From Ulota crispa (taxonomy: Eukaryota > Streptophyta > Bryopsida > Orthotrichales > Orthotrichaceae), in assembly GCA_963920765.1 (NCBI GenBank), contig OY987246.1, positions 498,501 through 562,500 of the forward strand: a stretch of 64,000 nucleotides of DNA, in the 5' to 3' direction. The position numbers and the translations under genes are program-made. Positions 4,634-64,000 of this stretch are shown here, one piece after another. Numbering within the stretch: the first letter of the stretch is position 1; each line of letters starts with the position of its first letter. The notes below the pieces were generated by a model that saw nothing but the letters and a program-made list of their open reading frames with translations, had not been told where the DNA came from and made no database searches.

Positions 4634-5340
4634 CTACGCCCTCGAGAAGCAATAGACCGACGCAGTAAAAATGCGAGCGAACATCGCAAAGCAGCACGGC
4701 TTATGACATGGAATAGTGCATTGTCTAAAAATCGACAAGAATGCAGAAATATCGCAAACGAGGCGGGCAGTACATTCTCAAGCATAAGAGAATACCGAGT
4801 GTTTTATAAAAATTTGCGTGACCGAGATATGGTGCAAATATTACTCCTCGCAAGACAACACACGTCTACGCATCTGTCTCCCTAATACCTAAACCCTAAA
4901 TCCTAAATTCGGCTTCCAAAATCGCACCTAAGACTATTAAAATGGGTCAAAAAGTATCCTCTGGCTTCACCTCTAAGACTTGTGTTTAGTTGAATGACTC
5001 CAGCTTCGTCAACGTTGCAGGGTCTTGCAAACGGAATGAAAGAGGGTGGGCGTATGCTAACCAGGAAAACCTCCCCGAATCCACCCTCGCCCAGCTTATT
5101 GTCCTTGTGAAAACCACGAGTCGCCTTCTTGAGCTCCTTGTACGTGAACAAATTGGTTGCTATCGATGCCTTCGCAAAATCTGAATAGAGAGATACGCAC
5201 CACCAAACCCTAATTATAATCGGTTGCCTTTTCCTCCAATTAACCATAAGTAGATTGAAACCCTAATCCAACTAAGCTAAGACGAGCACAGATCGCGAAG
5301 GAATAATTGGAGGTCCGCGTTGAAGTTCCGAGCTGCTGTT
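4634..5340 (-). promoter_or_regulatory. 5' leader module of mL41, shared with the gene at 20.55 kb
   Basis: Two blocks on this strand are homologous by eye to the plus-strand leader of the small gene at 20550: 5340-5281 (matches 19686-19755) and 4886-4634 (matches 19942-20195). The second block contains shared runs such as CATATCTCGGTCACG, ATTCTTGTCGATTTTTAGAC and CTCGAGGGCGTAG. Between the blocks this copy holds an ATG-led reading frame with a kinase piece. Teloboxes (CCCTAAACCCTAA-like) occur near 4890 and 4575. I infer that the module carries promoter, first exon and leader intron. Confidence 0.6.
5062..5247 (-). pseudogene. Receptor-like kinase N-lobe fragment
   Basis: An open frame from ATG at 5247 gives 'NLFTYKELKKATRGFHKDN' then 'KLGEGGFGEVFL'. 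This is the start of a plant receptor-like or cytoplasmic kinase domain, with the juxtamembrane FTYKELKKAT motif and the glycine-rich GxGxxG loop. Homology stops at a GTTAGC splice-donor-like site near 5062, and the frame ends at 4903 without the VAIK lysine, HRD or DFG motifs. A full kinase domain is about 270 residues and only about 30 are present. No other kinase exon lies nearby on this strand, where the mL41 gene follows. It is either a captured exon or the stub of a kinase gene whose 5' end became the mL41 leader. Not catalytic. Confidence 0.65.
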
Positions 5341-12813: not shown

Positions 12814-15681
12814 AAAAAGTTAGTAAATGAAACTTTAGAAATTAATTCTCTAAATATAAAATTTTCCAAAATTTTCAAACTAGGAGTAGCACTTGTTATT
12901 AAAATAATAACTTGCACAAAACTAATCAATCAAAAGGTTGAAGGGAAAATATCTACATTTATCAAAGATTATTGGTAGTCTATTACTTCAAAATATGATG
13001 GGGATTTTTGAAATAATTTGTACCAGTAATCCATTTCAATATTTTCTTTTTATAAAGCAAAGTGGTTAAAACTAATATTATCCAGTGAACTTATATTTAC
13101 ATAGTCATCTAGTATACAAAGAAAAACTTGGCTTAACTTTTGAAAATATTACTTAAAATTGTAATATTACACTTAAATTTTTATTGAAATATTGAAAGCA
13201 ATACAAATTCATCAAATTTATATTCAAAATTAAATTGTTGATGCAATATTCAACCATATTAACTCCTAAAGGACTGAAGAACCTACTTTGGGCTTTTTGG
13301 ATATTCAAGCAAAGCATTTTTGTGTAAATACTTGAGATACTAATATGAAGATAAGGGTGTATGTGTTCATATTGAAAAGCTTGCATTCCTTCCAAAAAAT
13401 GATGGAATTTAATAATTTTTGAGTGAGATATGGTAAAGTGTGTGATTTAATTGTCAACATGAGCCTCTCTAAAAAAAATAAAAAACAAAGAGATTGGGAA
13501 AGAAGTTGCCCAAATACTATTCAAAAGCACTTTACAATGGCTTGATCACTGGGCAAAAATTGCAGTCAACTTTCCTTGACTATGTAATAATTCCTTTTAT
13601 TTTTGGAAAAATATTCCTTTGGCAAATATTCTACATGATGTTATGGGTTACAATGTACATATTTTGTAATTAAGATTTATTAATATAAGAATCTCTTCAA
13701 TGAGGTTTTTTTAGAGTAATGACAGTTTCAACAAAGTAGTTCTTGCTTCCAAATTTTTTCCACTATGTTTTAAGCATTGTATGGTCATGGAATTTGTGAG
13801 ACACATAGCCAACTTCATGCTCGACAAGAAATTTAAATTGCACAAGAAATTTATAAAGTGGAAGATATCATTTTGGATGACCAAATTAAAAGTTGACACT
13901 TTAAAGAAGCTTGGAAAAAGTTTTGATCCTACTATGAGTGTTATCACCTAATGGAATATGCCTTACAAAGTCTAGAATTTTGAGAGGTTGTACATAAGTA
14001 AGCAACAAAATAGATCTTAGGATTGAATTATTGAAAAAAATTCAAAAATTTGACCCCCTAGACATTTTATTGAGAGGTGTTAGTTTCAAGCCATTTGAGC
14101 ATTTAAACACAAAGGAATTTTAGGGGTTAATTGGCGGTTTGTACTACTAAGTGTTAGAGTCAAAGGATGTAGATAGATTATATAATGAATTTCAATAACT
14201 TTAGGATTATAGAGGCACTTAGATGTTATTTACTCATAACTCCTAAAAAGGAAAAACTGTAATAGATTAAAACTAATCAAAGTTTTTCATTTGATATATG
14301 CTTATAAATGTTGTATCAACTCATTTATATTAAATGATACAATTTCTTTATTTTATTTATTTAATTACATAATTTATTTATTATTTTAGATCTTAATGCT
14401 TTTAGTTGACAAATAAAAATAAAAAGTCTACAAGACAATCTGGACTTTCTCAATTGTCGCAAGTTTATCTTGGTAAAGTTACACTTCTATCACGTCTAAC
14501 ATAGATATACACCTAGATATATTCCAATAAACGGTGGTCTTAATAGTAAGGAATTACAACTTTGTACAATTATATTACACAAGAAATCAAAATTTATTAA
14601 TCCTATAAAGTTGGGTTTAACCCCTATAAGATTAATGCCTCCTTTTGGTCAAAGATTGCTCTAAATTGCCATTTCTAGTGCAAAGAGCAAAAAAGTTAAA
14701 TAGTTTTTTTTTGCATATTCAACCATGGGATCTTGTAGTAAACTAGTATATAAATAAGTGGGAAAATTTCAAATATGTGGATTACATATGTTGCAAGATA
14801 TTTGTGTTTGAAATATCCTAAATTGTTTTTTTGCAACTTGCACACCTAGAAATGCAAAATTAAATTAAATTCATGAATTTTCTAATCCATAAATAAAAAT
14901 TTTAAGTCAAATTAAGTACAAGATAAAAAGGAAAACTAAATTACCCACCAAATAAGAATCTTCATAACTTTCACATCAAATATCCAAGTGCAACTAGTTG
15001 AATAGTTTTACAAACCAAAATCATATAATATATACATATATAAATTTAGAAAAAAAAAGCTCAAGCTTATGTTCTTTTTGGTTGCCTAGTATCCTTTATT
15101 TTGAGCTTTTTGTGTCCTAACAATTGCTTCTAAGCACTCGTTGAAAAAAAACTGTATTCCTAAATAGCTAATCAGATTTTCTTTCTCAAAAAAAAGTTAC
15201 AAAATATCATGATGAAAATTGCGATTGTAGATACATGCCCAAATTCCCAATTGTCCCCCAAATAGACAATGGTCATTTAGGGGTCAATTCCTTCTAGGAA
15301 AATATAATCTAAAAACCACCAATTATGAAGAAAAAAGTACCATAAATCTCAAACCTACCTCAATGTACTTTTTTTCTTCTTTACTTGATCCAAAAAATAA
15401 AATAAAAAATAGGTGTTGAGGTAGGCTTGCATTCTCCTCAAACCTACTATAACCCTTGAGCTCCCCAATGTTCCAAATCTAGCATCTCTATATTCAACAG
15501 TTTGTTGTCTTTGATTGTAATAATCTTTTAATCCATGCAATAAAAACTTACCAAATTTTTCATACACCTACAGACCCTAAATCTCATACAATATCAATGG
15601 CTCTTTTTTTTTGAACTTGCAATGCCAAATTATTTGCAATGAGGTCCAACACGGCATGAATTTGGGTTGGGTGCTCAAGGG
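12814..15681. other. Gene-free AT-rich intergenic DNA
   Basis: No supported gene. Around 14940-15010 the phrase CTTCATAACTTTCACATCAAA echoes the arm of the right-end palindromic family, so parts are probably eroded repeats. Confidence 0.55.
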
Positions 15682-15974
15682 TTAACCCCTTAGCGCTCCA
15701 GCGCCTCATAAACCGCCTCCCATGATTTCAAAGCCTTGTTTGAGGCACTGGATCTAATTTTTTGATTGTGCTATAAACTACAATTATCAAGGCATTCAAG
15801 TTGTCCATGCCAATTGAGTAATGGTGAGGAAAACCAAATGTTCTACAACTGCTGCAAGAGATTTGATTGGGTGAAACTATGTACAAGGCGTGGTGGCAAG
15901 GAGCATTTTATCGGCTACAACTGGTCAATATCCCTTGCAAGCTTCCTTGTGTAAGCTTTGTGGTAGCTGGAAAG

Positions 15975-16053
15975 TGCATTAGCAAAATTATGAGCCCTCT
16001 AGAAGGCCCTTATGAATGCGTGCCTAATACATAACAAAGGTAAGAAAAAACAG

Positions 16054-16116
<63 letters not shown>

Positions 16117-16250
16117 TGGTTTGTACATGGTGTTATATGATCTGACTGCGTGACAAAGGTCAGATTTGACATTTGAAATCTTTTCTATATGCACATTGGG
16201 CACGGATTCATAAGGGCCCTCTAGAGGGCTCAAATTTCTCCTAATGTGTT
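15975..16250. repeat. Inverted repeat with an AT microsatellite in its loop
   Basis: Left arm GAGCCCTCTAGAAGGCCC ... ATGAATGCGTGCC (about 15975-16024) is repeated inverted at about 16198-16250. The loop carries the (TA)n tract. Confidence 0.8.
16056..16115. repeat. (TA)n microsatellite, about 30 units
   Basis: Uninterrupted alternating TA for about 60 bp. Confidence 0.97.
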
Positions 16251-16940
16251 GGCAAGGGTTCAAGCATATTCTAGACCCTTATTATGGCAACCATTACCAA
16301 CTATGCCGGTCATTGTTTTTTGTGCAATAGCAATTTGAAGCTTTAAACCATGACATAAAAAGAAGTGCAATCTTCAATAATTTACAAGTGTGTGCATTCA
16401 CATCTAATCTTGCTACCCACAAAATTTAAGATGATTCAAGGGGCTCATAGAATTTTGTAAAAATCAACAAATAGCAACTACCTACTAAAAATTAAGATTT
16501 TGCCATCACATGTTGTTTGATCAAATGTTATAATCTCCCATCTCCCATGGTCAATTGTTGCCAAAATTTGCAAGCCATTTTCTAAGTAGGTGTTCCATTA
16601 TTTTCAATGGTCACTTTTTGTGAATCATTCAATTGACCAAGAAATAATGCAACAAAATTGTCGGTCTCCAAAAACCTTAATTTTGATGGAAACAGCCTGG
16701 GCGCTCAGGGGTTAACCCCTAAATGTTTGAGTGTGCCGCTACAACCAGTAGAATATGGGGTGTTTTTTTTGTATTTGGAATAGATTCACGCCTTTACTAC
16801 ATTTGAGATCAACAAAGAAGTTGAAAAATAGATCAAAGCAATTCTAGTGGGCTACTTGAGATCCCAAATTAAAACTTCTTATTGGTAACAAATGCCAAAT
16901 ATTTGGTAGGTATATACTATGCCATGTGGTCATTTAAAGA

Positions 16941-17592
16941 TTAACCCTTCACCTCCCATGGTATTTTTGAGTATCTTAGAATTTGTTTGAAAGTGAACAA
17001 AATGCCGGCATTTTGATCAATCTCATCAATTTTCTCTAAAGCGCAATTGTACAAATTCAAAGTAGACATGTTATAGATCACATAGGAAAAGAAATCACAA
17101 AAATATCACTTGTGGATTGAAAGATCATAATGTTTGATCATGAGGGTGTTAAAACTGCAAATGTGATTTGAAGTCTTTCAATCCTCTTTTTGCATCTCAA
17201 ACCTAAAACTGAGGGTACCAAAAAAATATAAGTATGTCAAGCATAACATGTATAACCCCAATTAATTTACGGCTTCTCAAAATCTAATCTACAATTTTTT
17301 AAATTGTATTTTTAATGTGATTTTTTCTCCAAGTTCTAGTGTACTTCAGGCTCAATTCCAAGAGCCTTCAACTCTAGAAAGTGAAGATTTACAATAGACA
17401 CCCTTGCACAAAATCTTGAATAGACAAATAATTTTAATTCATTTTCAAAATCAGACTCTAATTGCTAAAACTAGGCTTCAATAAGAATTTAAAAATAATA
17501 ATAATCACTAAAAAATCTTGAAAAAAGGTTGAACATCTTTGAATAAAATTTAGAGAGGCCTGATTTGGACCCCTTGCATGGTGAGGAGTTAA
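16941..17592. mobile_element. TTAA-flanked miniature element, subfamily A
   Basis: TTAACCCTTCACCTCCCATG at the left matches TTAACTCCTCACCATGC from the right after reverse complement. Internal text (TACAAATTCAAAGTAGACATG, a region around GATTGAAAGATCATAATGTT, and CTCCAAGTTCTAGTGTA) is shared with 18717-19369 and 22549-23275, so the three form one family. Confidence 0.7.
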
Positions 17593-17790
17593 GGGCATCA
17601 TCAATGCAGCACGGGCATTTGGGCGGAGCCTAGGACGGCAAAAGCATTGCTATTTTTTGACTAGTGTATAATTAGAAAATGAGATTACTATCATTGGAAG
17701 CGTATGCAAAAACTTGTCAAACAAATAAAATGACATATGGTGTTGGGAATTGGACAAACAAACTAACGTCCATGATTGGGTGAGCTATAT
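17593..17790. mobile_element. Fragment of the GGGCAT(C)TTCAATGC Tourist-like family
   Basis: GGGCATCATCAATGCA, then GTGTATAATTAGAA and GAGATTACTATCATTGGAAG, match the left arm of the hairpin element at 25299-25799. The second arm is missing. It directly abuts the TTAA of the previous element. Confidence 0.6.
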
Positions 17791-17796
17791 GCAGAA

Positions 17797-18720
17797 AATC
17801 TTTATTTTTTCATGCTTGTGTGGTTTTGAATGTTAAAGCTTCATGCAAGCTTTGATTGAGAAGAGCCTTATATTCTAGAAAGCAGGGTTTCCCACCTTTC
17901 CAACAAGACTAGTTTCACACAAAATAGACAAATATAGCAACTACAAGGTGTAGCTAAGTAGACAAAAGGATGAAAAATCTCACTTTCTTTGCTACCCTAA
18001 AACGGTTCTACAAATGATTTGATTAATGTTATGGAAATTTTGATTGGTGAAAACAATCAAGAATTGACCTTAAATGTAGGATGACAAATTTTTACGATGA
18101 AATGATAGCACCATTTCAATAGATCTTCAAATATTACAATTATACTACTACCGTATAGAGAAACAATACAAGCGTATTTCTTGAGCAATTTGAATTTTTT
18201 TAGGATTGCACAATTGAAATTTGACATTTTTCTTGGATGTTTGACGTATTGTATTGTTGCTTTGATCCATCTTTGACCAAATATGGATACATGTTTTAAG
18301 GCCATGCTATATAAACATCATTATATATCAACCACTAGAAGAAAAACATGCCATAAACGACTGCCACAAATTGTCATGACTGGCTCACAATAACTACCTT
18401 ACAATTGCACAAACAACTGGATAACAACTGCACGGCTAGATTCTAGTTGTGAAAATGTTGTGCAGTTGTTGTACAATTGTATGTGCAATTGTAAGGCAGT
18501 TATTGTGAACCAGTCACGGCAATTCATGGCAGTTGTCTATCTTTGTTTTTCTTCTACTCACATGCCCAATTTCATTGTTTTTTATTTGGTTGGATGCAAA
18601 ATTATTATGGGCACAAGCGTTCTTCAAGACCGATTTCCAAATTGTTGAACAATTTTACTCTAAAAGCCAAAAACCACTCTTCCAAACCAAAATATGGTTC
18701 GGTGGTCTCTAAAGGGTTAA
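17797..18720. repeat. Repeat X, copy 1, ending at TTAA
   Basis: Homologous over its length to 55050-55758 (shared runs include CATTTCAATAGATCTTCA, AGAGAAACAATACAAGC and CTTTGATCCATCTTTGACC). Both copies end GGTCTxTAAxGGGTTAA. This copy is interrupted by a hairpin insertion at 18333-18558 that copy 2 lacks. The left boundary is unknown. Confidence 0.7.
18333..18558. mobile_element. CACTA-like hairpin MITE, about 225 bp
   Basis: The ends read CACTAGAAGAAAAACA and, inverted, AGTAGAAGAAAAACA, close to the CACTACAAGAAAAA ends of plant CACTA elements. Internal arms of about 78 bp (ACTGCCACAAATTG... / ...CAATTCATGGCAGT) pair across a short loop. The empty site is visible in repeat X copy 2 near 55590 (TATCAACTCACA). 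Confidence 0.72.
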
Positions 18721-19369
18721 TCCCTATATGCCCAAGGCTTTTTTTGAGCTTCTAGAAATTTGTTCTAAATTGAAAAAAAAGCTAATAGTTTGATAAGTTG
18801 TATCAATTTCTTTTAAATTGTGACTGTACAAATTCAAATTAGATATGTTAAACGTCACATACAAAAATAATACACAACAATACCACTTACGGATTGAAAG
18901 ATTACAATGTTTGATCAAGAGGGTGTTATAACTGTAAAAATGACTTCAGGTCTTTCAATCCTCTTTTCACATGTCAAATCTAAAATGTTGGTCACCAAAA
19001 AAGTATGGGGTTAAAAGACACAACATACATAACTCCAATCCATTCATAGAGTTTTAAAATCTCTTTTACAAATATTTAAGATGAATTTCTAGAATGAATT
19101 TTTCTCCAAGATCTAGTATATTTGAAGCTCATTTTCATGGGCTCTTAACACTAAAAAAGTCAAGATTGCAATGGACACCCTTGCACAAAATCTTAAATAG
19201 AAATTCACAATCAATAATTTTCAAAATCAGGTTTTTGATTCCAAAACTAGACTTCAAAAAGAATAATTCAAAAATACTAAATACTAAAAATAATAGCTAA
19301 ATTACATTTTATGAAACTTCAAAATATTATCAGCACCAAAATGTGGTGCCTTGGGCATTTAGGGGTTAA
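18717..19369. mobile_element. TTAA-flanked miniature element, subfamily A, 653 bp
   Basis: Left TTAATCCCTATATGCCCAAG and right (inverted) TTAACCCCTAAATGCCCAAG give near-identical 20-bp termini bounded by TTAA. The interior is shared with 16941-17592 and 22549-23275. Near 19011 it has an uninterrupted GGGGTTAAAAGACAC, the empty form of a site that is filled in the 22.5-kb copy. Confidence 0.78.
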
Positions 19370-19529
19370 CCCTTAAACATCCACAGGGAACCGTGTACAC
19401 GTTGACGTATAATTGTTATTTGCTATCGATAAGAAATTTTAATTTGAGATCTCAAGTAGCTCACTAGAACCGCATTGATCTATTCTTCAACTTCTTAATT
19501 GATCTTAAATATAATAGAGGTGTGGATCC

Positions 19530-19685
19530 ATTCCAAATACAAGAAAAATACCCCGTCCTGTACTGGTCACAGCGGCACCCTGGGACGTAGCCACTCCCAG
19601 CGGTTTTAAAAAACCACTCACGCCCCGCCACCTGGCCAGGCGGATGGCAGGTGGCGGGCCCTTTCCCCGTCATGTGCCCCTGCCC
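19530..19685 (+). promoter_or_regulatory. GC- and CpG-rich promoter region of the 20.55-kb gene
   Basis: An abrupt GC-rich stretch upstream of the shared leader holds a palindromic CGCCACCTG ... CAGGTGGCG (about 19624-19655) and GGTTTTAAAAAACC. A G-box-like or dimer-binding role for the palindrome is possible but unproven. No TATA box is obvious. Confidence 0.4.
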
Positions 19686-20549
19686 CAGTAGCTCGGAACC
19701 TCGACCCGCACCTCCAATTCTTCCTTCGCACAGTCGTCTGTGCTCGTCTTGTTAGGGTTTTAGTCTATGGGAGTGCGTTGGTGGACGGCCAGCCAACCAC
19801 GGAGGTGCTTCTCGTTGCTTCTTTGCTCCTCTATCTGGTAAGTTTTACGTGCTGTTGTGTGTCTTTTGTCTTTTCCAAAAAAGAATTCTGTACTATCACT
19901 GCCTTCTCTACTGTAAAGTTCGATGGCGATTTGCATAGACATTAGGGAGATAGATGCATAGATGTGTTGTCTTGTAAGGAATAAGATTTGCGCCATATCT
20001 CGGTCACGAAAATTGGAAAAACACTCGGTATTCGCTTGTGCTTGAGAATTTATTGCCCGTCTCATTTGCAATTTTTTTTTGCATTCTTGTCGATTTTTAG
20101 ACAATGTAGTTTTCCATGTCATAAGCCGTGCTAGGTTGGGAATTTGCTCGCATTTTTGCTGCGTCGATCTATTTCGTCTCGAGGGCGTAGTGAAAGTAAA
20201 TCGTCAGTATTCTGGTTCTTGATGCTTTCAACTGAGGAGCGATAATAACCTTTGTTTTTCGTGAAATAAAGTAACCTGGGAGAGATGTTCTCTCTTTCTG
20301 CAAATTTTGATCTGATGTATGATTGTTATTTGGATGCCTTAAGAGTTCTGTTTGAATGAATCAATATGTGAAGCATAAAATAGTTCGGCAGAGTTTTGCT
20401 TCGTGGCATTGATACAGCGTCCTGTCATGATTCCATTTTTTCTACTTTCAAATGCATATTATGAGGTCATTCCTTGTTGAACATGTTCATGATATTTTGA
20501 TTGTTGAGTCCACCGCAGAGAGACAACCGGCTTGAAGAATTCACGGACA
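19686..20549 (+). promoter_or_regulatory. 5' leader with intron and upstream ORF
   Basis: Exon 1 ends at 19837 before GTAAGT; the intron 19838-20518 ends CCACCGCAG. Blocks 19686-19755 and 19942-20195 match the mL41 leader. An upstream ATG at 19767 gives a 23-residue frame (starts MGVRWW) that becomes TGA across the splice, so the spliced message would carry a short upstream ORF before the ATG at 20550. TTAGGGTTTTAG just before that ATG is a telobox-like element. Confidence 0.55.
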
Positions 20550-20741
20550 ATGGTGAGGACATACACGTTTGCCGCCATGGTAGCAGTGACGTATGCTGTA
20601 ATCACAAGCGGCGATCATGTGTTTCGTTGGATGGCGGAGCGGCAGGAAAGCAAAATCGAGCAGATTAAATTAGACAGGCAAGCAGTGAAGATGCGGCGAG
20701 ATCTGCTTCAAGAAATGGACGAAAAACAATTGTCCTCGTAG
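20550..20741 (+). CDS. Small single-pass membrane protein, unknown function
   Basis: 63 residues. Residues about 5-19 (YTFAAMVAVTYAVIT) form one hydrophobic segment, followed by SGDHVFRWM and a highly charged helical tail (AERQESKIEQIKLDRQ ... MRRDLLQEMDEKQ). The length and layout (short N-terminal membrane span, basic and acidic amphipathic helix) recall small inner-mitochondrial-membrane assembly factors such as PET117, but I cannot confirm membership. ATG at 20550 is chosen as the first ATG after the acceptor at 20517-20518; the frame is open six codons further upstream without another ATG. The leader with intron and telobox supports a genuinely transcribed gene. The leader it shares with the mL41 gene hints at similar expression. 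Confidence 0.6.
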   Translation: MVRTYTFAAMVAVTYAVITSGDHVFRWMAERQESKIEQIKLDRQAVKMRRDLLQEMDEKQLSS

Positions 20742-21035
20742 TGCAAAACTCAATTGGTTCCAATAATGTTTTGTTTGAAACAGACGATCATCTCTAGGGC
20801 ATCCAAAAACCATGTATGTTGTTTTTTGGCCGCTTTGCAGCATGTCCAAGTACGACAGCTCTCCTCTGTCAGGTGCACTTGGATGTTTCTTGCTTATTCA
20901 GTAATCGTTTTTTAGTACTTCATACTCAGGATATCAATATTTGTGTTAATTTGAAATGAAGACCTTTCTCTCGATTTCTCGATTAATGTACACTGAATAT
21001 TGCATTTAGGTTGCCTTTGACAATTAGGTTGCCTT

Positions 21036-21258
21036 AAGGTAGGAGGTTCATGAATGGAGCACCTAAGCGCTGAAACTGAATTTTGGGTAGGTGAAACTCC
21101 TTGAAATGATTTTTAGTAAACTTTCCTTGAAAGATGAGAAGAATTGGCAGCTAACCCAAGTTGTTTCATATGTTTTGGAACATTGTGGAATTAGTTATGA
21201 ATATTTGAAGTGGAAAGGCCGTAGGGCTCTACAATGGAGCACCTCCTCAAATGTGGTT
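21036..21258. mobile_element. MITE family B fragment
   Basis: AAGGTAGGAGGTTCATGAAT followed by GAATTTTGGGTAGGTGAAAC and AAGTGGAAAGGCC matches the other family B copies (26281, 33345, 49520). The right terminus is missing. Confidence 0.7.
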
Positions 21259-21296
21259 GCCTTACCCTTGCATTTAGGTTACCTTGACAATTAGGT

Positions 21297-21500
21297 TGCC
21301 TTGCCCTAGAAATTTATCTCATAATGCATCTTTTGGTCATTTGGAGGCACATGCAACTCTCTAGATTCTCAGTTTTCACATGGTCACAACGTGATCGCTG
21401 CTATTTTTTTAAAAATATTGATGAATATTAGTGTAGCAGCAATAAATATTTGTACAGTGTTAAATGTCAAGGGGGGAACCTCAACGCAATATTCAGTGTA
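21297..21500. repeat. Repeat Y, copy 1
   Basis: TTGCCTTGCCCTAGAAA, GGCACATGCAACTC, AGTGTAGCAGCAATAAAT and GTGTTAAATGTCAAG recur in the same order at 23889-24250. No coding potential. Confidence 0.6.
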
Positions 21501-22548
21501 TTGCTGTCAAAGCTGGACAATGTTCTACCTTGTTACGAGGCCTTTCTTGCTGTTTGATTTTGAGGAACAAATGATCTCTAGGTTTAAGTTACTTGTAAGA
21601 ATATGCATCCACGAGATTTTTTTCCAGAGAAGTGTGAGACTATGAGGTGATGGAGTTGTTCTCGTTGAAGCTAGGGCCGCACATGGTTCGGAATTTCGAA
21701 GATGGATTCCAGATGGGCGGTTCGAGCGACAAAAGCATTCTTTAACTCTTTGGAAGATTCCAATTGGTCTTTGGAATATTCTCCTGTTAAGGATTGTTGG
21801 ACGGACCGACGTTCCCAAGGACAGGGATGACTTTCCTTTTTCTTCTGGACCCATTTGAAAGAACTCAAATCAACTCATGCCTTCCCTTTAGAGCATCCAT
21901 ATCTTTACTCATGAACAATGAATTGATCAATCACAAAGTGGAACACAAGATAAAGCATAGTAAATTTAGGATGAAAAGTGATTTTGAAAGTCATTGTTTG
22001 AAAAGTTAAGCTTGAGTGCCATGAAAATAACTTGTAGATAATTCACAAGGTCTAGAGCACTTATCACCCAAGTATGGCAGCGTTAGACCCTTGGTGCATA
22101 AGAGTGTAGATATTCTTGGAGAAACCAACTGCCAATTTGATTCTCGATGGGAAATCTATATTCTCAAGTTACGTTTTGCTTTAACAGATCAAATTTAAAC
22201 TTTTTTTATAATGTCCTGTTGTTACAAATAGTTTGCCAATCAAGTTTCCATAGTCTTTATAATAATTACAGGTTCTCAACTTGGCTGCGGATTTCTCATA
22301 CTTTTTCTTTTAGATTATTGACTTTCGATTTTATTGAAGAGACTACCACTTCCCCAATGTTTTAATCAATTTGTGTGTGAAAACAAGGACAAATGAAGGA
22401 AAATAGCACTTTCAAAGCAGTTTAGTGACTTTTTTGAGTAAAGTAGTGATTTCGGCACAACATAAGTCGTACGACTATACATGGTCAAGCCACATCGAAA
22501 TTAACCGGCGTTTCAAAACGTTGTTTTGGGAAAAACAAGTGGCTGCAC
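21501..22548. other. No supported gene
   Basis: Short open frames only. A CpG-containing patch at 21660-21860 (CTAGGGCCGCACATGGTTCGG) may be an old gene or transposon fragment, unrecognised. Confidence 0.4.
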
Positions 22549-23275
22549 TTAACCCCTAAATGCCCAAGCCTTATCTGAGCTTTTTGGAATTTCCATAAAA
22601 CATAACAATCAATCACCCTTTTCAAAAATTTCATCAAGTTTTTTCAATTGTAACCGTACAAATTTAAATTGAACATGTTAGAGATTACATGGGAAAAGAA
22701 AACACAACAATATCACTTATAGTTTGAAAGATTATAATGTTTGAACATGAGGGTGTTAAAACTGCAAAAGTGACTTGTAGATTTTTAATCCTCATTTCAC
22801 ATGTCAAATCTAAAAAGTTGGTTACCAAAAAAATATGAGGTTCAACCCCTCATTGCCGAAGGGGATGTTTTTGTCTCCAAAACCCATCTGTTTTGAGAAC
22901 AACCGGCGATGAGGGGTTAAGGTCATTACATGTTTAACTTTAATCAATTTATGACTTTCAAAATCTACTCCTATGTATTTTTAAAATGGATTTCTAATGT
23001 GATTTTTTCTCCAAGCTCTAGTGTATTTGGGGCTCATTTTCAAGATCTTCCAACACTAGAAAACTCAAGATTGTAGTGGATACCCTTGTACAAATTTTTG
23101 AGTAGGAAAATCATCAATTTTCATTTTCAAAATCAGATTTTTGATGTTGAAAATAGACTTCAAAACCAACTAATACTGAAAAAAAAATATTGAAAATAGT
23201 AATTTGATAAGATTTTTTTCATCTTCAAAGCTTTGTTGCGACCCAAATTTGGTCGCTTGGGCATTTAGGGGTTAA
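22549..23275. mobile_element. TTAA-flanked miniature element, subfamily A, 727 bp
   Basis: Both ends read TTAACCCCTAAATGCCCAAG (right end inverted), 20 identical bases bounded by TTAA. The interior is shared with 16941-17592 and 18717-19369. It holds a nested 80-bp insertion at 22841-22920. Confidence 0.82.
22841..22920. mobile_element. Nested 80-bp TTAA mini-element
   Basis: TTCAACCCCTCATTGCCG ... CGGCGATGAGGGGTTAA: the termini are inverted repeats flanked by TTCA and TTAA. The sister copy at about 19007-19020 has an unoccupied TTAA at the same place, so this is an insertion into TTAA. Confidence 0.75.
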
Positions 23276-23471
23276 CTTACTTCTTTGCGCAAAAGTCAAT
23301 TCTTTAAATATTTATGCTTTAATTTTTGGTCTATTCCAAACCGGTGATTTTTTGTGTTCACAAAATGTTATCTCCAACCTCTTGCTATGGAGGTTATTTT
23401 TAGTAGAATAATAGACGAACTATGAGAAAGTGATTGTCCCCTAGTTTTCTAAAATACAGATTACATAATTA

Positions 23472-23881
23472 GGGAATTGATATGTACCACACTCTTTCAA
23501 TTATTGTACCACACCCTTAGAGTAAATTTTAGATTTCTACCATCAAGAAGCTGAATTTGAGAATTTGGGATTCAGATTTGGACTTAGAGACCATGATTTA
23601 GCTCAGAACCACAAAAAAATTGCAATTCAACAACACCCAATGAAAAAGTTTAGCTTGGGAGAAAAGTGGCACTTTTACTTTTGATTGTAAAAAAAGATTA
23701 GCTTTTTCATTGGGTGTTGTTGAATTGCAACTTTTTTTTGTGGTTCTAGACTAAATCATGGTCTTTGAGTCCAAATCTGAATCCCAAATTCTCAAATTCA
23801 GCTTTATGATGGTAGAAATCTAAAATTTACTCTTGGGTGTGGTACAGTAATTGAAAGGGTGAGGTACACATATCAATTCCC
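23472..23881. mobile_element. Foldback element, 410 bp
   Basis: GGGAATTGATATGTACC at the left is mirrored by GGTACACATATCAATTCCC at the right; the arms pair almost throughout (for example AACAACACCCAATGAAAAAG versus CTTTTTCATTGGGTGTTGTT). Flanking ATAATTA (23465-23471 and 23884-23890) looks like a target duplication of about 7 bp. It is inserted in repeat Y. Confidence 0.85.
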
Positions 23882-23888
23882 CAATAAT

Positions 23889-25298: not shown

Positions 25299-25799
25299 GC
25301 TCATCTTCAATGCATTCATTGGGAATGGGGCGGCAATAGAGTTGCTATATTTTTGATTGATGTATAATTAGAATATGAGATTACTATCATTGGAAGCGTA
25401 TACAAAAACTCGTTAAACAAATAAATTAACACATGGAATTGGAAACTAGACAATTAAAATAACGCTTTTTGAAAGATAGCTAAAGGACAAACAACACGGC
25501 AAACCATGCCTAATAAAGAAAATCTAATGTAGTGGCACCCCAAATTCTGAAAATTTGGGGTGCCACTACATTAGATTTTCTTTATTAGGCATGGTTTGCC
25601 GTGTTGTTTGTCCTTTAGCTATCTTTCAAAAAGCGTTATTTTAATTGTCTAGTTTCCAATTCCATGTGTTAATTTATTTGTTTAACGAGTTTTTGTATAC
25701 GCTTCCAATGATAGTAATCTCATATTCTAATTATACATCAATCAAAAATATAGCAACTCTATTGCCGCCCCATTCCCAATGAATGCATTGAAGATGCCC
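25299..25799. mobile_element. Near-perfect 501-bp hairpin, Tourist-like MITE
   Basis: Arms of about 245 bp (25299-25547 and 25552-25799) are essentially identical reverse complements, meeting at CCCAAATTCTGAAAATTTGGG. Termini are GCTCATCTTCAATGC / GGGCATCTTCAATGC. TTA occurs immediately outside on both sides (25296-25298 and 25800-25802), the 3-bp duplication expected for PIF/Harbinger (Tourist) elements. The lack of divergence between the arms implies a recent origin. Confidence 0.88.
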
Positions 25800-36431: not shown

Positions 36432-37598
36432 TTAACCCCTAAAGGACCAATTGTCCCCTCGAGGAACAGGTGGTACTTCAGGCATGTACCTACAGCTAAA
36501 CTAAATTTCATGATTTTTTGAAACTTTTATTGAACGTAGGGAATTTAAAAACCTACATGGGCATCTAATTTTTTCTTCATTCCAACATTTGACAAAAAAG
36601 TTATGCATGAATTTAAAAAAAAGAAGAGGTGCGGCAGTACGGGCAGCCCCTCTCCTTTGTATGTGAGAGTTGACTAGAAGAGGGGCAATTTGTGGAGGGT
36701 AGATTTATTGTTGATGTGGGCAGATGAAGCATGGGTGACATGCTATGCACCCGGCATGACACCTTGAATTGGCAAGGAAGTGGGGTGAAAAGATATCCAC
36801 ATGGCAGCTGGTAGTGTAGGGAAATTTGGGCACCAAAAGTTCCGATTGTTGAGGGGATTGGAAGTTAGCCACATGATTGAAACAGGAAGGCGGAAGGGTG
36901 CAATATTAGTAAGGTATCCAGGTTCAAGAAGGCTAGGTGGGGATTCTGAGTGAGGGGAGATGCATGGAGGTAGGGGATGGGCCCATCCTCCAAGACCCAA
37001 ACCCCCCTCATTTCGTTTGCCCATGTAAAATTTTCATATTTAATTATTTTGAGCAAGTTGAGTAGGGTTATTTTAGATTTTTTTTTCACACATGATATTA
37101 CACTAAGTTTCCTTAATTTTGAAATTTTGAATTATATTAATCTAAAGGGTCAAAATCTACATAAATCTCTAATTTTACCTAGTGTATTTGCAAATTTCAT
37201 GACCTTCCATCATTGCAAGATTTTTTGAAGTGTGTTGCACACCTCCAATTGATCTGAAAATTTTCCCACATGTACCTACCTTGGTGTTTTGCAAAGGAAA
37301 AATAAACCTCACATTTTTGTGGAGTAATTTTTTTGTTGTAGAAGCGGTCAAAGGCTTCTGAAAACTTTGGGCAGCAGTGAAAAAAACTTTTTGTCTTCAC
37401 TTCACATGTGAATATTTCACTTGTTTGAATGCAAAATGACCTAATTTTTTTCTTGCAAATAGATCTAGTAGTTTAGGCAAGATCCTACAGTTGGATTTTC
37501 AAAAAAAACTCTTTTTCTTACCTTTCTACTCATTCCCCAAAAAGTGGCAATTTTCAATGATTTTCACAAAGAAAAGGGCTTGATCCTTTAAGGGTTAA
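36432..37598. mobile_element. TTAA-flanked element, subfamily C, 1167 bp
   Basis: The left end TTAACCCCTAAAGGACCAA matches the right end inverted, TTAACCCTTAAAGGATCAA. The left 180 bp match the element that begins at 63361 (TTTTTTGAAAC..., CATTCCAACATTTG). Minus-strand open frames inside are not recognisable. Confidence 0.75.
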
Positions 37599-49470: not shown

Positions 49471-50194
49471 TAGGGTCTTGATACTGCCATCCCCTTTTTG
49501 ATAAGATAGAAGGGTCAAATTTGGAGCTGGCTCTAAAATGGAGCACCTCCTCAAATGTACTCTTCTTGTATATCTTATTTTTCATAGCCCTTCAACAATG
49601 TACAGCTCATGTACAGTTGAGGAGGTGCTCCAATTTAGAGCCCTATGGCCTTTCCACTTCATATATTCATAACTACTTCGACAAAGTTCCAAAAAATGTG
49701 AAACAACTTGGGTCAGATGCCGATTCTTCTTGTCTTTCAAGGAAAGTTTATTGAAAATCATTTCAAGGAGTTTCACCTACCCAAAATTCAATTTCAGCCC
49801 TTAGATGCTTCGTTTCTAGGCCTCCTACCTTACTGCCACCCCATCTTTTACATCATCCTTCAATTTGTAGTGATTTCTAGGGACAATTTCTTTTTTAAAA
49901 TTTTATAACTAAATATGTATAAAACCAAGTGAGTTTTTGTTGGGGTTTTTCAAAATGATAAATTGCAACCAATGTTTTTGATAAGAAGAGATAATAGAGT
50001 GTTCTCTTTTCTTTCTTTTTTAATTGATTGCAATTTATCATTTTGAAAAACACCAACAAAAAATGACTTGGTTTGATATATATTTAATTCTAAATTTTCA
50101 AAAAATTGTCCCCAAAAATCACTAAAAATTGAACATTGATATAAAAGAAGGAAGTGGAATTATCAATAAGGTGGGTGGCAATATCAAGACCCTA
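49471..50194. mobile_element. Foldback element interrupted by a family B MITE
   Basis: TAGGGTCTTGATACTGCCA at the left pairs with TGGCAATATCAAGACCCTA at the right. The inner arms (CAAAATGATAAATTGCAACC / GATTGCAATTTATCATTTTG) flank a pyrimidine-rich loop. The left arm is split by the MITE at 49520-49831. Confidence 0.75.
49520..49831. mobile_element. MITE family B, nested copy
   Basis: Interior CTATGGCCTTTCCACTTCA, GAAACAACTTGGGTCAGATG and right end GGCCTCCTACCTT match the family. The left terminus is eroded or replaced by an inverted duplicate of GGAGGTGCTCCA-type sequence. Confidence 0.75.
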
Positions 50195-50299: not shown

Positions 50300-51224
50300 A
50301 CATGCATTGATGTATGATACCCTCTAGAAACTCTTGCAACCCTTTTTGTGAAGCCATTCAAATTCTTTCTTTTATTTCCATTGTAAAAGTATTTTATCAT
50401 AACTATCTTGTTAATTGTATTGCTTTATAGAACCTTCACTAGCATGTGAAATGTCCATCATGTCTGAAAGTAAGACCTCTATTTTTGGTGAATTTTTTAT
50501 TTTGTTTTATAGGCTTCACATTAAAATTAATTGAAAAACATGTGTGATGATTTTCTAACATTTGATTGCACAAATATATAGGAAACAACACTGTTCAAAT
50601 CTTTTGTATTATAAAGATGCTCACTATGTAGGTAAAAATTTCCTCTATGTGGCTATAAAGCCTATAATGTGTTTTCTATTTTATTTTCATACAAAATTGA
50701 AGCTACAGAAATTAAACTCATGTTATGGTAGGCTAAGACTTGAACAAATATAGTCAAATAAAGTATCATTAGAAAGCTATAGTAATATAGAAGCCTACTA
50801 TAGCATGAGTTTGATTTCCTTAGCCTTAAATTTCTATGAAAGAAAATTTAAAAACACATTATAGTCTTTATAGCCATATAGAGGAAAATTTTACCTACAT
50901 AGTAAGCATCTTTATAATACAAAAGATGTGAACAATGTCGTATCCTTTATATTTGTGCAATCAAATGTTAGAAAATCATCACACATGTTTTTCAATTAAT
51001 TTTAATGTGAAGCCTATAAAACAAAATAAAAAATTCACCAAAATTAGAGGTCTTACTTTCAGACATGATGGACATTTCACATGCTAATGAAGGTTCTATA
51101 AAGCAATACATTTAACAAGATAATTATGATAAAATACTTTTACAATGGAAATAAAAGAAAAAATTTGAATAGCTTCATAAAAGGGGTTACAAGAGTTTCT
51201 AGAGGGTACTGTACAATGCACATG
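50300..51224. mobile_element. Large foldback, arms about 430 bp
   Basis: Left arm 50300-50733 and right arm 50790-51224 are inverted copies (CCCTCTAGAAACTCTTG / CAAGAGTTTCTAGAGGG; CATGTGTGATGATTTTCTAA / TTAGAAAATCATCACACATG) with scattered mismatches. The loop is about 56 bp. No coding capacity. Confidence 0.88.
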
Positions 51225-53421: not shown

Positions 53422-54291
53422 TACAATACTAGGTAGTATAGATCAGTAGTGCATGTTTAGGCATTTCCAACAAGTTTGCATAATTAAAAATATAAATTGT
53501 ACTATAGTCTCATATTGTTGGTATATAATTCTCATGCAATTCCAATCAACCGTACCAAATTTTGATTACTAAAAGCGAATATACTAGTTTTTGCCAAATG
53601 TTTTGTGTAAAAATCATGGTTTTACAAGAAATTTGATTAGAAAACATTGCTAATGAATATTAGAGATTTAATTGCATGGATGTGTTGGAGACCTCCATGT
53701 GCACATCTTTCCTTCTAACATGCATCTTTAGAAAGTTCATAATTCCTTCAATGGAGACTTAAATGTTAGTGTAATCATGACCAACTTTAGTAAAATAAAT
53801 ATCTCCATTTTTTTAATAACTTTTGGCAAATAAAACATTTTGTCATGCTCAAAGGTACAAACTCAATCATGATGTATGAGTCAAATAACTGAATCTAATT
53901 ACCATAAAGACAAATCTATTTTACTAAAGTTGGCATGATTACACCAACATTCAAGTCTCCATTGAAGGAATTATGAACTTTCTAAAGATGCATGTTAGAA
54001 AGAAAGATGTGCACATGGAGGTCTTCGACACATCCGTGCAATCAAATCTCAAAAATTCATCAGCAATATTTTTTAACCAAATTTCTCGTAAAACCATGAT
54101 TTTCACACAAAACATTTTGCAAAAACTAGTATATTTGCTTTTAGTAATCAAAATTTGGTAAGGTTGATTGGAATTGCATGAGAATTATAGACCACCAATA
54201 TGAGACTATAGTACCATTTATATTTTTAATTATGCGAACTTGTTGGAAATGCCTAAACATGCACTACTGATCTATACTACCTAGTATTGTA
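53422..54291. mobile_element. Large foldback, arms about 370 bp
   Basis: TACAATACTAGGTAGTATAG at 53422 pairs with CTATACTACCTAGTATTGTA ending at 54291. The arms continue to about 53802 and from about 53917 (CTTTAGAAAGTTCATAATTC / GAATTATGAACTTTCTAAAG). No coding capacity. Confidence 0.88.
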
Positions 54292-54990: not shown

Positions 54991-55049
54991 ATAAAGCATC
55001 AAGATTTTAACTAAATCTACCATTGGAGATGAAATATTATAATGATTGA

Positions 55050-55758
55050 GTTGTAGGCAAGAAATTTCTAGTTTTTGTGCTTCTGTGGTTTTAGATCACT
55101 GTTTCATATAAGCTTTGCTTCAAAAGAGCCTTACACTCATAAAAAGCTAGGTTTTCCATCTTTCTAATGAGATTGACTTCACACAAAATAGATGAAAATT
55201 GCAATCACAATGTGTAGCTAAGTGGACAAAAAGGGTCATAAATCCCACTTTCTTTGTTGCCCAAAAACAATTTTGCAAGAAACTTGATAAATGTTGTGGA
55301 AAACCCAATCAGTGAAAACAATAAATGATTAACTTTAAATGTAGGACAATTTTTTTAAAAGACGAAATGATAGAACCATTTCAATAGATCTTCATACACT
55401 ACAATTATACGACTATTGTATAGAGAAACAATACAAGCATATTTATGGAGCAATTGGAAAAACTTTAAGATTGTACAATTGAAATTTGGCATTTTTCTTG
55501 GATGTTTATGTATTGTGTTGTTGCTTTGATCCATCTTTGACCAAATATGGATGCATATTTTGAGGCCATACCGTATAAACACCGTAATTTATCAACTCAC
55601 ACACCCAATTCCATTGATTTTTTTTGGTTGGATGCAAAATTCTTGTGATCACAAGCAATATTCAAGATTAATTTTTAAATTATTTAGCAAATTTACTCTA
55701 TAGGCCAAAAGCCACTCTCTTAAATCTAAATTTGGTTCGATGGTCTTTAATGGGTTAA
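55050..55758. repeat. Repeat X, copy 2, ending at TTAA
   Basis: Homologous to 17797-18720 but lacking the hairpin insertion, so it preserves the empty site near 55590. Ends GGTCTTTAATGGGTTAA. Confidence 0.72.
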
Positions 55759-61441: not shown

Positions 61442-62026
61442 GGGAATTGATATGTGTACCGCACCCTTTGAACTACTATACCACACCCTTTGAACTATTG
61501 TACTACATCCCAGGATAAATTTTAGCTTTTTACCATCAAAAGCTGAATTTGAGAATTTGGAATTCAAAATTGGACTTAGAGACCATGATTTACTATAGAA
61601 CCATAAAAGAAGTTGCAATTCAACAACACCCAATGACAAAGTTTATATTTTTTTACCAAAAAAACAAAAGTAACGCTGTTCTTCCTATCTAGACATTTCA
61701 TTGGATGTTGTTGAATTACAATTTCTTTTATTGCTCTAGAGTAAATCTTGGTCTCTAAGTCCAAATTTGAATTCCAAACTCTCAAATTCAGCTTTCTGAT
61801 GGTACAAATCTACAATTTACCCTAGGGGTGTGGTATAGTAGTTCAAAGGGTGTGGTACAATAGTTCAAAGGATGTGGTACAATAGTTCAAAGGGTGTGGT
61901 ACAATAGTTCAAAGGGTGTGGTACAATAGTTCAAAGAGTGTGGTACAATAGTTCAAAGAGTGTGGTACAATAGTTCAAAGGGTGTGGTACAATAGTTCAA
62001 AGGGTGTGGTACACATATCAGTTCCC
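61442..62026. mobile_element. Foldback element with an internal minisatellite
   Basis: Same family as 23472-23881: GGGAATTGATATGTGTACC at the left, GGTACACATATCAGTTCCC at the right, and GCAATTCAACAACACCCAATG in the arms. The right arm is lengthened by a 22-bp tandem array. Confidence 0.85.
61826..62012. repeat. 22-bp minisatellite, eight full units
   Basis: Units start GGGTGTGGTACAATAGTT and continue CAAA; the start positions step by 22 from 61826 to 61980, then a partial unit follows. Units vary only at the second or third base (GGG, GGA, GAG). Confidence 0.95.
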
Positions 62027-63360: not shown

Positions 63361-64000
63361 TTAACCCTAAAGGACCACTTGTCCCTACGGGGGACAAATG
63401 GGATTTTGGGCATGTATTTATGACTAAACTATTTTGTGTAATTTTTTGAAACTGTTATGGAACATGGGGAATTCAAAAATTTGTGTGGGCATCTATATTT
63501 TACCTCATTCCAACATTTATTGAAGAAGTTAAGAATGTATTTATGATAATTTTAGTTTGGTGGGGAGCCCAAAACTTCTTCAAAAATTGCATTTTCTGAA
63601 AATAAAAATTTGAGGTTAATTCTTTAGACTTTGGTATATGTGGGAAGTTTTGAATCATTCAATTCTAATTGATGAGATGAAAGTTATGAGAAGTTTTAGT
63701 TTGCGTGTAGGCATAGTTTTGAGATTTTCCACACCTACCCACAAACTAAAACTTCTCATAACTTTCATCTCATCAATTAGATTTGAATGATTCAAAGCTT
63801 CCCACATATACCAAAGTCTAAAGAATTAACCTCAAATTTTTATTTTCAGAAAATGCAATTTTTGAAGAAGTTTTTGGGCTCCCCACCAAACTAAAATTAT
63901 CATAAATACATTCTTAACTTCTTCAATAAATGTTGGAATGAAGTAAAATATAGATGCCCACACAAATCTTTGAATTCCCCATGTTCCATAACAGTTTCAA
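63361..64000. mobile_element. Palindromic TTAA element, cut by the window end
   Basis: Begins TTAACCCTAAAGGACCACT, like the element at 36432. From about 63446 it forms an inverted repeat centred near 63724: AACTTCTCATAACTTTCATC is mirrored by GATGAAAGTTATGAGAAGTT, and the final bases CCATAACAGTTTCAA mirror TTGAAACTGTTATGG at 63446-63460. If symmetric, it should end about 85 bp beyond the window. Confidence 0.82.

Follow-up and report, generated by a model that had tools for sequence, protein, structure and literature searches.

The stretch analysed here (the window) comprises 64,000 nucleotides of DNA and contains several families of miniature inverted-repeat transposable elements (MITEs) bordered by TTAA. 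We are highly confident that these repeats are non-autonomous, internally deleted members of the piggyBac superfamily, hosted by a land plant that is most likely a moss. Indeed, TTAA is duplicated on insertion, most of the genomic copies fetched carry it at both ends, and longer elements with the same kind of termini encode transposases of the DDE_Tnp_1_7 family; the piggyBac reading, which an initial annotation had proposed from the ends in the window, is thus supported. The superfamily itself is known and the novelty is modest; its host is poorly documented, and the scale is large.

Miniature elements and the duplication of TTAA

TTAA at both ends and inverted termini of the CCC type were found at 15682-16715, 16941-17592 (weak), 18717-19369, 22549-23275 and 36432-37598, and the ends were read at the very bases that the initial annotation had named. 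Over the 12 nucleotides after TTAA, the two ends match at 12/12 positions in 22549-23275 and at 10/12 in each of 15682-16715, 18717-19369 and 36432-37598. In 16941-17592 they match at 7/12 only; the body of this element shares about 74-80% identity with the remaining two copies of its family. The element at 18717 begins with TCCC instead of CCCC, and the one ending at 17592 ends with CTCC, read inwards.

A self-comparison of the window grouped the elements into families. Family A has three copies (A1 to A3, about 74-80% identity), and the sequence common to A2 and A3 begins at TTAA and ends at most one base from TTAA. Family F includes 36432-37598 and a cut element at 63361, and family B includes 17781-18720 and 55047-55758; for family E (15682-16715) the self-comparison found no relative in the window. 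Family B had been overlooked in the initial annotation, as had an element nested at 22842-22920 and the abutting of neighbours through one TTAA (at 16712, 16941 and 18717). The elements are as follows.

15682..16715, + strand: E-family MITE, 1034 bp including both TTAAs; termini CCCCTTAGCGCT / CCCCTGAGCGCC
15976..16246, no strand: insert within the E copy, 271 bp, containing a TA run
16712..16944, no strand: possible TTAA element X, 233 bp, weak termini (7/12); tentative
16941..17592, + strand: A-family MITE copy A1, 652 bp; weak inverted termini (7/12)
17781..18720, + strand: B-family element; right end at TTAA 18717-18720, left part weakly defined
18717..19369, + strand: A-family MITE copy A2, 653 bp
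22549..23275, + strand: A-family MITE copy A3, 727 bp including the nested element; termini 12/12
22842..22920, no strand: nested miniature element in A3, TCAA-CCCCTCATTGCC ... GGCGATGAGGGG-TTAA, inserted into one TTAA; termini 11/12
36432..37598, + strand: F-family MITE, 1167 bp; termini CCCCTAAAGGAC / CCCTTAAAGGAT
55047..55758, + strand: second B-family copy; right end at TTAA 55755-55758
63361..64000, + strand: F-family relative, left end only, running past the window; largely one long palindrome (63446-64000)

TTAA is common by itself, with 431 occurrences in the window, and the ends could be TTAACCC sites that AT-rich DNA contains by chance. The probability of this explanation is negligible in our view. 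The window holds 26 TTAACCC/GGGTTAA ends versus 10.0 ± 3.3 (maximum 19) in 200 dinucleotide shuffles, and four inverted TTAA pairs starting with CC and matching at 10/12 or better versus a mean of 0.025 (maximum 1) in 40 shuffles. Homologous bodies, moreover, end at TTAA. In the whole assembly (274.8 Mb, 157 contigs), the 16-nucleotide A terminus CCCCTAAATGCCCAAG has 3,244 exact sites, 2,742 of them directly after TTAA, and the looser pattern TTAACCCCTNANNGNCCANG gave 12,632 ends; the reversed control was 0 for both patterns.

The element nested in A3 provides an empty-site test. Thirty A loci were fetched, of which 27 entered the alignment after removal of the copy in the window, L010 and L033; the insert is missing in all 27, where the site reads TTAA in 25 and a variant in two (L015 and L028). 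Thus, TTAA is a true 4-bp target duplication. The empty site is typically GAGGT-TTAA-GGTC, while A3 reads GAGGT-TCAA-CCCC...GGGG-TTAA-GGTC, so the left TTAA copy has one change in A3.

TTAA is palindromic, and at any single locus a duplication cannot be told apart from a terminus; TTAA could therefore be part of the inverted terminus, the true target duplication being different (TA, TWA or none). We judge this very unlikely, since A3 exceeds A1 by 75 bp, that is, the 71 bp of the nested element plus 4. Furthermore, CTAA flanks one F copy (L060) on either side and in direct orientation; this motif is non-palindromic and argues for duplication, as a mutated inverted terminus would not yield it. 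The flanks beyond TTAA also appear unrelated by eye in the listed A and F copies. MITEs of the PIF/Harbinger or Tc1/mariner type make a 3-bp TWA or a 2-bp TA duplication, and the single empty site tested shows 4 bp, which speaks against any other duplication length.

The genome-wide presence of TTAA at both ends, which the initial annotation had set as a test, was confirmed in most of the fetched copies. With the ends free to shift by up to 4 nucleotides, TTAA stands on both sides in 25 of the 30 A loci and in 19/26 full-length F loci (30 loci fetched, 26 full-length scored, L043 left out), the window copy being counted in each family. Copies departing from TTAA mostly do so on one side only. 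One A copy (L031) has CTAG on both sides, which is palindromic and hence not decisive; it may reflect an off-target insertion or matched mutations.

As regards the terminus itself, the first three bases of the left end are CCC in 23/30 A and 20/26 F copies, and the fourth is C in 26/30 and 23/26, respectively. CCCT stands at the left end of A1 and is also the start in B and in one transposase element (L070, below).

Transposase genes and superfamily assignment

The initial annotation had reported no transposase in the window, which is borne out over the range covered here. A tblastn search of the window with insect piggyBac gave nothing better than an E value of 0.51, the chance level, and Pfam scans in which stops were replaced by X found no transposase in the two strands of 1-10, 14-24 and 30-40 kb, in the minus strand of 44-54 kb and in a few open reading frames elsewhere. 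The matches in those stretches were to DnaJ and DUF674, and weakly to MRP-L27 and EF-hand. Neither Rfam (gathering threshold) nor tRNA scanning gave a hit in the window.

Across the assembly, DDE_Tnp_1_7 (PF13843) gave at least 120 matches with 116 of 527 candidates scored, all above the cut-off and the best with an E value of 1.3e-73, and none in 14 control genomes. Five of these loci (L069 to L073) were extended, four from the eight best-scoring and one free of stops. Three of the five sit inside elements of 5.0-5.7 kb whose best end pair is TTAA plus CCC-type termini, so that the transposase with termini of the same kind, a check named in the initial annotation, was found in clean form in these three. 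The L072 element (5,746 bp) has termini identical at 15/16 positions and of the A type; the L070 (5,102 bp) and L069 (5,027 bp) elements have termini matching at 12/16, those of L069 being of the type of the nested element. Since random fake 1.1-kb hits gave an equally good pair in 13 of 400 placements, all in this one window, the pairs at three of five transposase loci go beyond chance. The right end of the L072 element also matches the right ends of A2 (49 bp, 80%) and A3 (35 bp, 86%).

All three catalytic aspartates (D268/D346/D447) align in L070, in L071 and, over two frames, in L072. A frame of L073 matches the solved piggyBac (4.1e-20) and piggyBat (5.8e-17) structures. Cysteine-rich tails are visible at the C-terminus of the L071 and L072 frames, as read from the sequence without a domain model.

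Two other superfamilies have to be weighed here. Besides piggyBac, one well-known superfamily duplicates TTAA, namely Kolobok (PMC9587614); we consider it an extremely improbable source of the elements described here, although no search was aimed at Kolobok transposases. In the accessible passages of that work the Kolobok termini are 5'-RR...YY-3', whereas those of the window are mostly 5'-CC...GG-3'; moreover, the transposases carrying these termini match DDE_Tnp_1_7, and the one frame tested matches the solved piggyBac. Part of the Sola elements makes TTAA-like duplications. Besides this likeness, Sola is annotated in the fern Ceratopteris according to the accessible part of its genome paper (PMC6890710); an assignment to Sola3 is exceedingly unlikely, given that DDE_Tnp_1_7 transposases are present with these very termini, although no search was aimed at Sola.

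Some observations weigh against the assignment to piggyBac and against the strength of its evidence. TTAA is missing on one or both sides in 7/26 F and 5/30 A copies, and the fetched copies are the best-scoring ones, so that the share with TTAA may be flattering. Among the 3,244 exact A-type termini, 502 lack an exact TTAA, which may be due to mutation. Most A, E and F ends begin with CCCC, whereas the published hallmark of piggyBac termini is CC[C/T]T (PMC2872659) and the most conserved start is given as CCCTT (PMC10813416), both in the accessible passages; most A and F ends thus depart from the strict motif while showing inverted termini that begin with CCC. Coral family III departs from it as well, and one coral family likewise begins with CCCCT (PMC2872659). 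As for the enzymes, only 10 rows (8 places) among the 120 DDE_Tnp_1_7 matches are free of internal stops. Only five loci were extended, picked by score or by a stop-free frame, and two of them (L071 and L073) have no clean end pair. The third aspartate is N in L073, and the L069 frame stops before that position. Finally, no single long element was identified as direct parent for any of the families A, E, F and B, and the sequence held in common beyond the termini is short.

Two candidates were dropped. L071 was rejected as a clean case because its best-scoring pair is not of the CCC type, and the view that B is a fragment of the transposase element at L073 was abandoned, although B matches the first 700 bp between the outermost ends of L073. 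The B-like stretch L073:307-1215 also stands beside the L070 element (L070:497-1409, 87.5% identical) and is therefore, from these alignments, more likely a B element of its own.

Separately, two lower-scoring piggyBac-type matches, G000:C1:1180709-1181995 and G000:C8:19570986-19572215, have long stop-free frames (563 and 472 amino acids); these could be transposase genes adopted by the host or divergent intact copies.

A mechanism can be proposed for the piggyBac elements. Longer elements located elsewhere in the genome would supply a piggyBac-type DDD transposase, which would bind to the CCC-type ends, excise the element and insert it at a TTAA, duplicating these four bases. By analogy with the cleavage, hairpin and seamless excision scheme of insect piggyBac, as described in the accessible passages of PMC7351741, the cut at the transposon end would be followed by a hairpin that uses the flanking TTAA, by its opening and by joining into a new TTAA, and excision would restore TTAA. 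The hairpin intermediate and the seamless excision are carried over from the insect enzyme and are presumed to apply here. Likewise, the A, E, F and B families were probably mobilised in trans by the DDE_Tnp_1_7 transposases of the genome.

Copy number and shared TTAA in the genome

For the DNA homology queries, 40 candidates were scored per query. Among these, most matches of A, F and B extend to the outermost bases of the copies in the window, and most right-hand matches of B reach the identical last base. For the right half of E, 39 of 40 rows (itself included) reach the last base, the others being 88-90% identical; for the left half, 14/39 begin at base 1 and most others at base 43-55. The scored copies are about 72-95% identical to those of the window, and most insertions are therefore, on this divergence, not recent.

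Other scored E copies that cover both sides of the 271-bp insert run nearly back to back without it (query 1-294 and 566-1034 side by side). A palindromic insert at about 18336-18556 also splits the B element 17781-18720, and in many other B copies an overlap of about 5 bp exists between the two B parts at the position of the insert. This overlap suggests a 5-bp target duplication by another type of transposon. To the left of the same B element, 17633-17768 matches another repeat.

The pattern TTAACCCC has 53,617 sites in the assembly versus 9,944 for the reversed control, an excess of about 43,700. This leads to a rough figure of about 20,000 elements in the genome; a TTAACCCC site is not necessarily the end of an element. 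TTAACCCCTAAATGCCCAAG had no exact match in the viral and prokaryotic contigs scanned.

Neighbouring elements of the window are stacked through a common TTAA: E and X at 16712, X and A1 at 16941, B and A2 at 18717, with X and the left part of B weakly defined. In addition, GGG precedes the TTAA at 15682 and CCC follows the TTAA at 19366, as if more ends abutted there, and no CCC end follows the right TTAA of A1 (17589). The stretch 19363-19581 is related to 16730-16947 in inverted orientation. Of the 57 A and F copies counted, six (the mis-ended L043 among them) carry GGG ahead of the outer TTAA or CCC behind it.

Genome-wide, the junction pattern GGGGTTAACCCC was found at 1,074 sites, with three for the reversed control. 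About 388 such junctions would be expected if TTAA were hit regardless of its neighbours, a value for which the number of TTAA sites was extrapolated from this one window. Coherently, GGGG directly precedes TTAA at 463 of the 12,632 strict ends (3.67% versus 1.45% expected). The excess of abutting elements is thus 2.5- to 2.8-fold, and could come from a taste for resident ends, from local hopping or from segmental copying. We regard as possible, and only tentatively propose, a moss lineage with a large piggyBac radiation (about 20,000 copies and several subfamilies), in which resident ends are favoured landing sites, elements stack head to head through the shared TTAA and some transposases may still be active.

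Host context and known systems

The host named in the initial annotation, a plant, stands, and can be narrowed to a land plant, most likely a moss. Contig C157 encodes psaA and psaB over the full model and thus appears plastid-like. The best solved relatives of these two proteins are 7ksq, 7kux, 6l35, 7xqp and 8htu, the first entries of which we take to be photosystem I of the moss Physcomitrium patens; for psaB the best score is 1,681 bits, followed by 9lut with 1,643 and others with at most 1,603, and psaA gives the same order. Of the 48 psaA/psaB matches, 46 lie outside C157 and are mostly short fragments, which look like plastid DNA moved to the nucleus. The window contains a DnaJ gene, read as chloroplast-type, and a DUF674 exon (about 39 kb, minus strand, E value 5.2e-8), a domain presumably specific to plants. 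An open reading frame at 4903-5262 was read as part of a receptor-kinase-like gene, a reading not confirmed by Pfam.

The window holds other repeats and two further candidate elements. Long near-palindromes, 79-99% self-complementary, lie at 25302-25796, 50318-51208, 53422-54291, 23465-23888, 61455-61881 and 49841-50151, and are probably foldback-type repeats of other families. The stretches 4634-5338 and 19686-20190 are inverted duplicates (80-85% identical) near the apparent beginning of a small plant gene at 19.7-20.7 kb. A 22-bp tandem array of GGGTGTGGTACAATAGTTCAAA occupies 61826-62023.

13259..14130, no strand: possible further TTAA element, termini 8/12; tentative
14617..15287, no strand: possible further TTAA/TTGA element, termini 9/12; tentative

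piggyBac is the seamless TTAA-targeting transposon that underlies a major genome-engineering tool, and its natural history has been told mostly from animals and some protists. A moss genome with structurally verified piggyBac families and transposase genes takes the land-plant range of the superfamily from entries in repeat tables to evidence on termini, target sites and enzymes. It becomes testable whether plant piggyBac was inherited or acquired sideways, whether the enzyme is adapted to plants and whether resident ends attract insertions.

According to the initial annotation, piggyBac does not normally figure in repeat libraries of land plants, which is mostly fair and yet not absolute. In the accessible passages, the repeat table of Ceratopteris richardii lists 1,230 PiggyBac copies over 122 kb (PMC6890710), a Stipa genome table lists one (PMC8319324), and the occurrence of piggyBac in plants is stated in passing in three papers. 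The Ceratopteris case resembles the present one in that piggyBac is assigned in a seed-free land plant, but there it is a table count, and the accessible passages give no termini, target sites or transposase genes (PMC6890710). More generally, the passages mentioning plant piggyBac hold no termini together with target sites and transposases. The phrase "piggyBac in plants" and similar ones gave no literature match in a search that most subscription papers fall outside, and we do not claim that moss piggyBac is unpublished; a match for Niphotrichum was the ordinary word "piggybacking", and a Physcomitrium transposon paper lacks the word piggyBac.

Compared with piggyBac of Trichoplusia ni, the elements described here share the 4-bp TTAA duplication, the CCC-type inverted ends and a DDE_Tnp_1_7 transposase with three aligned aspartates. 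They differ in the host, a land plant, in that most ends read CCCC rather than CCCT, and in the length of the clean transposase elements, 5.0-5.7 kb versus the 2,472 bp quoted for piggyBac in the accessible part of PMC10140906. The CMITEs of the coral Acropora are also alike: the accessible passages (PMC2872659) describe TTAA-flanked miniatures with piggyBac-like ends, one family having CCCCTCAGTGTCCG, and report them in tandem arrays as well; one CMITE family seems derived from a local piggyBac-like transposon. The CMITEs measure about 100 bp (PMC2872659), whereas most elements described here measure about 650-1,170 bp and reside in a plant.

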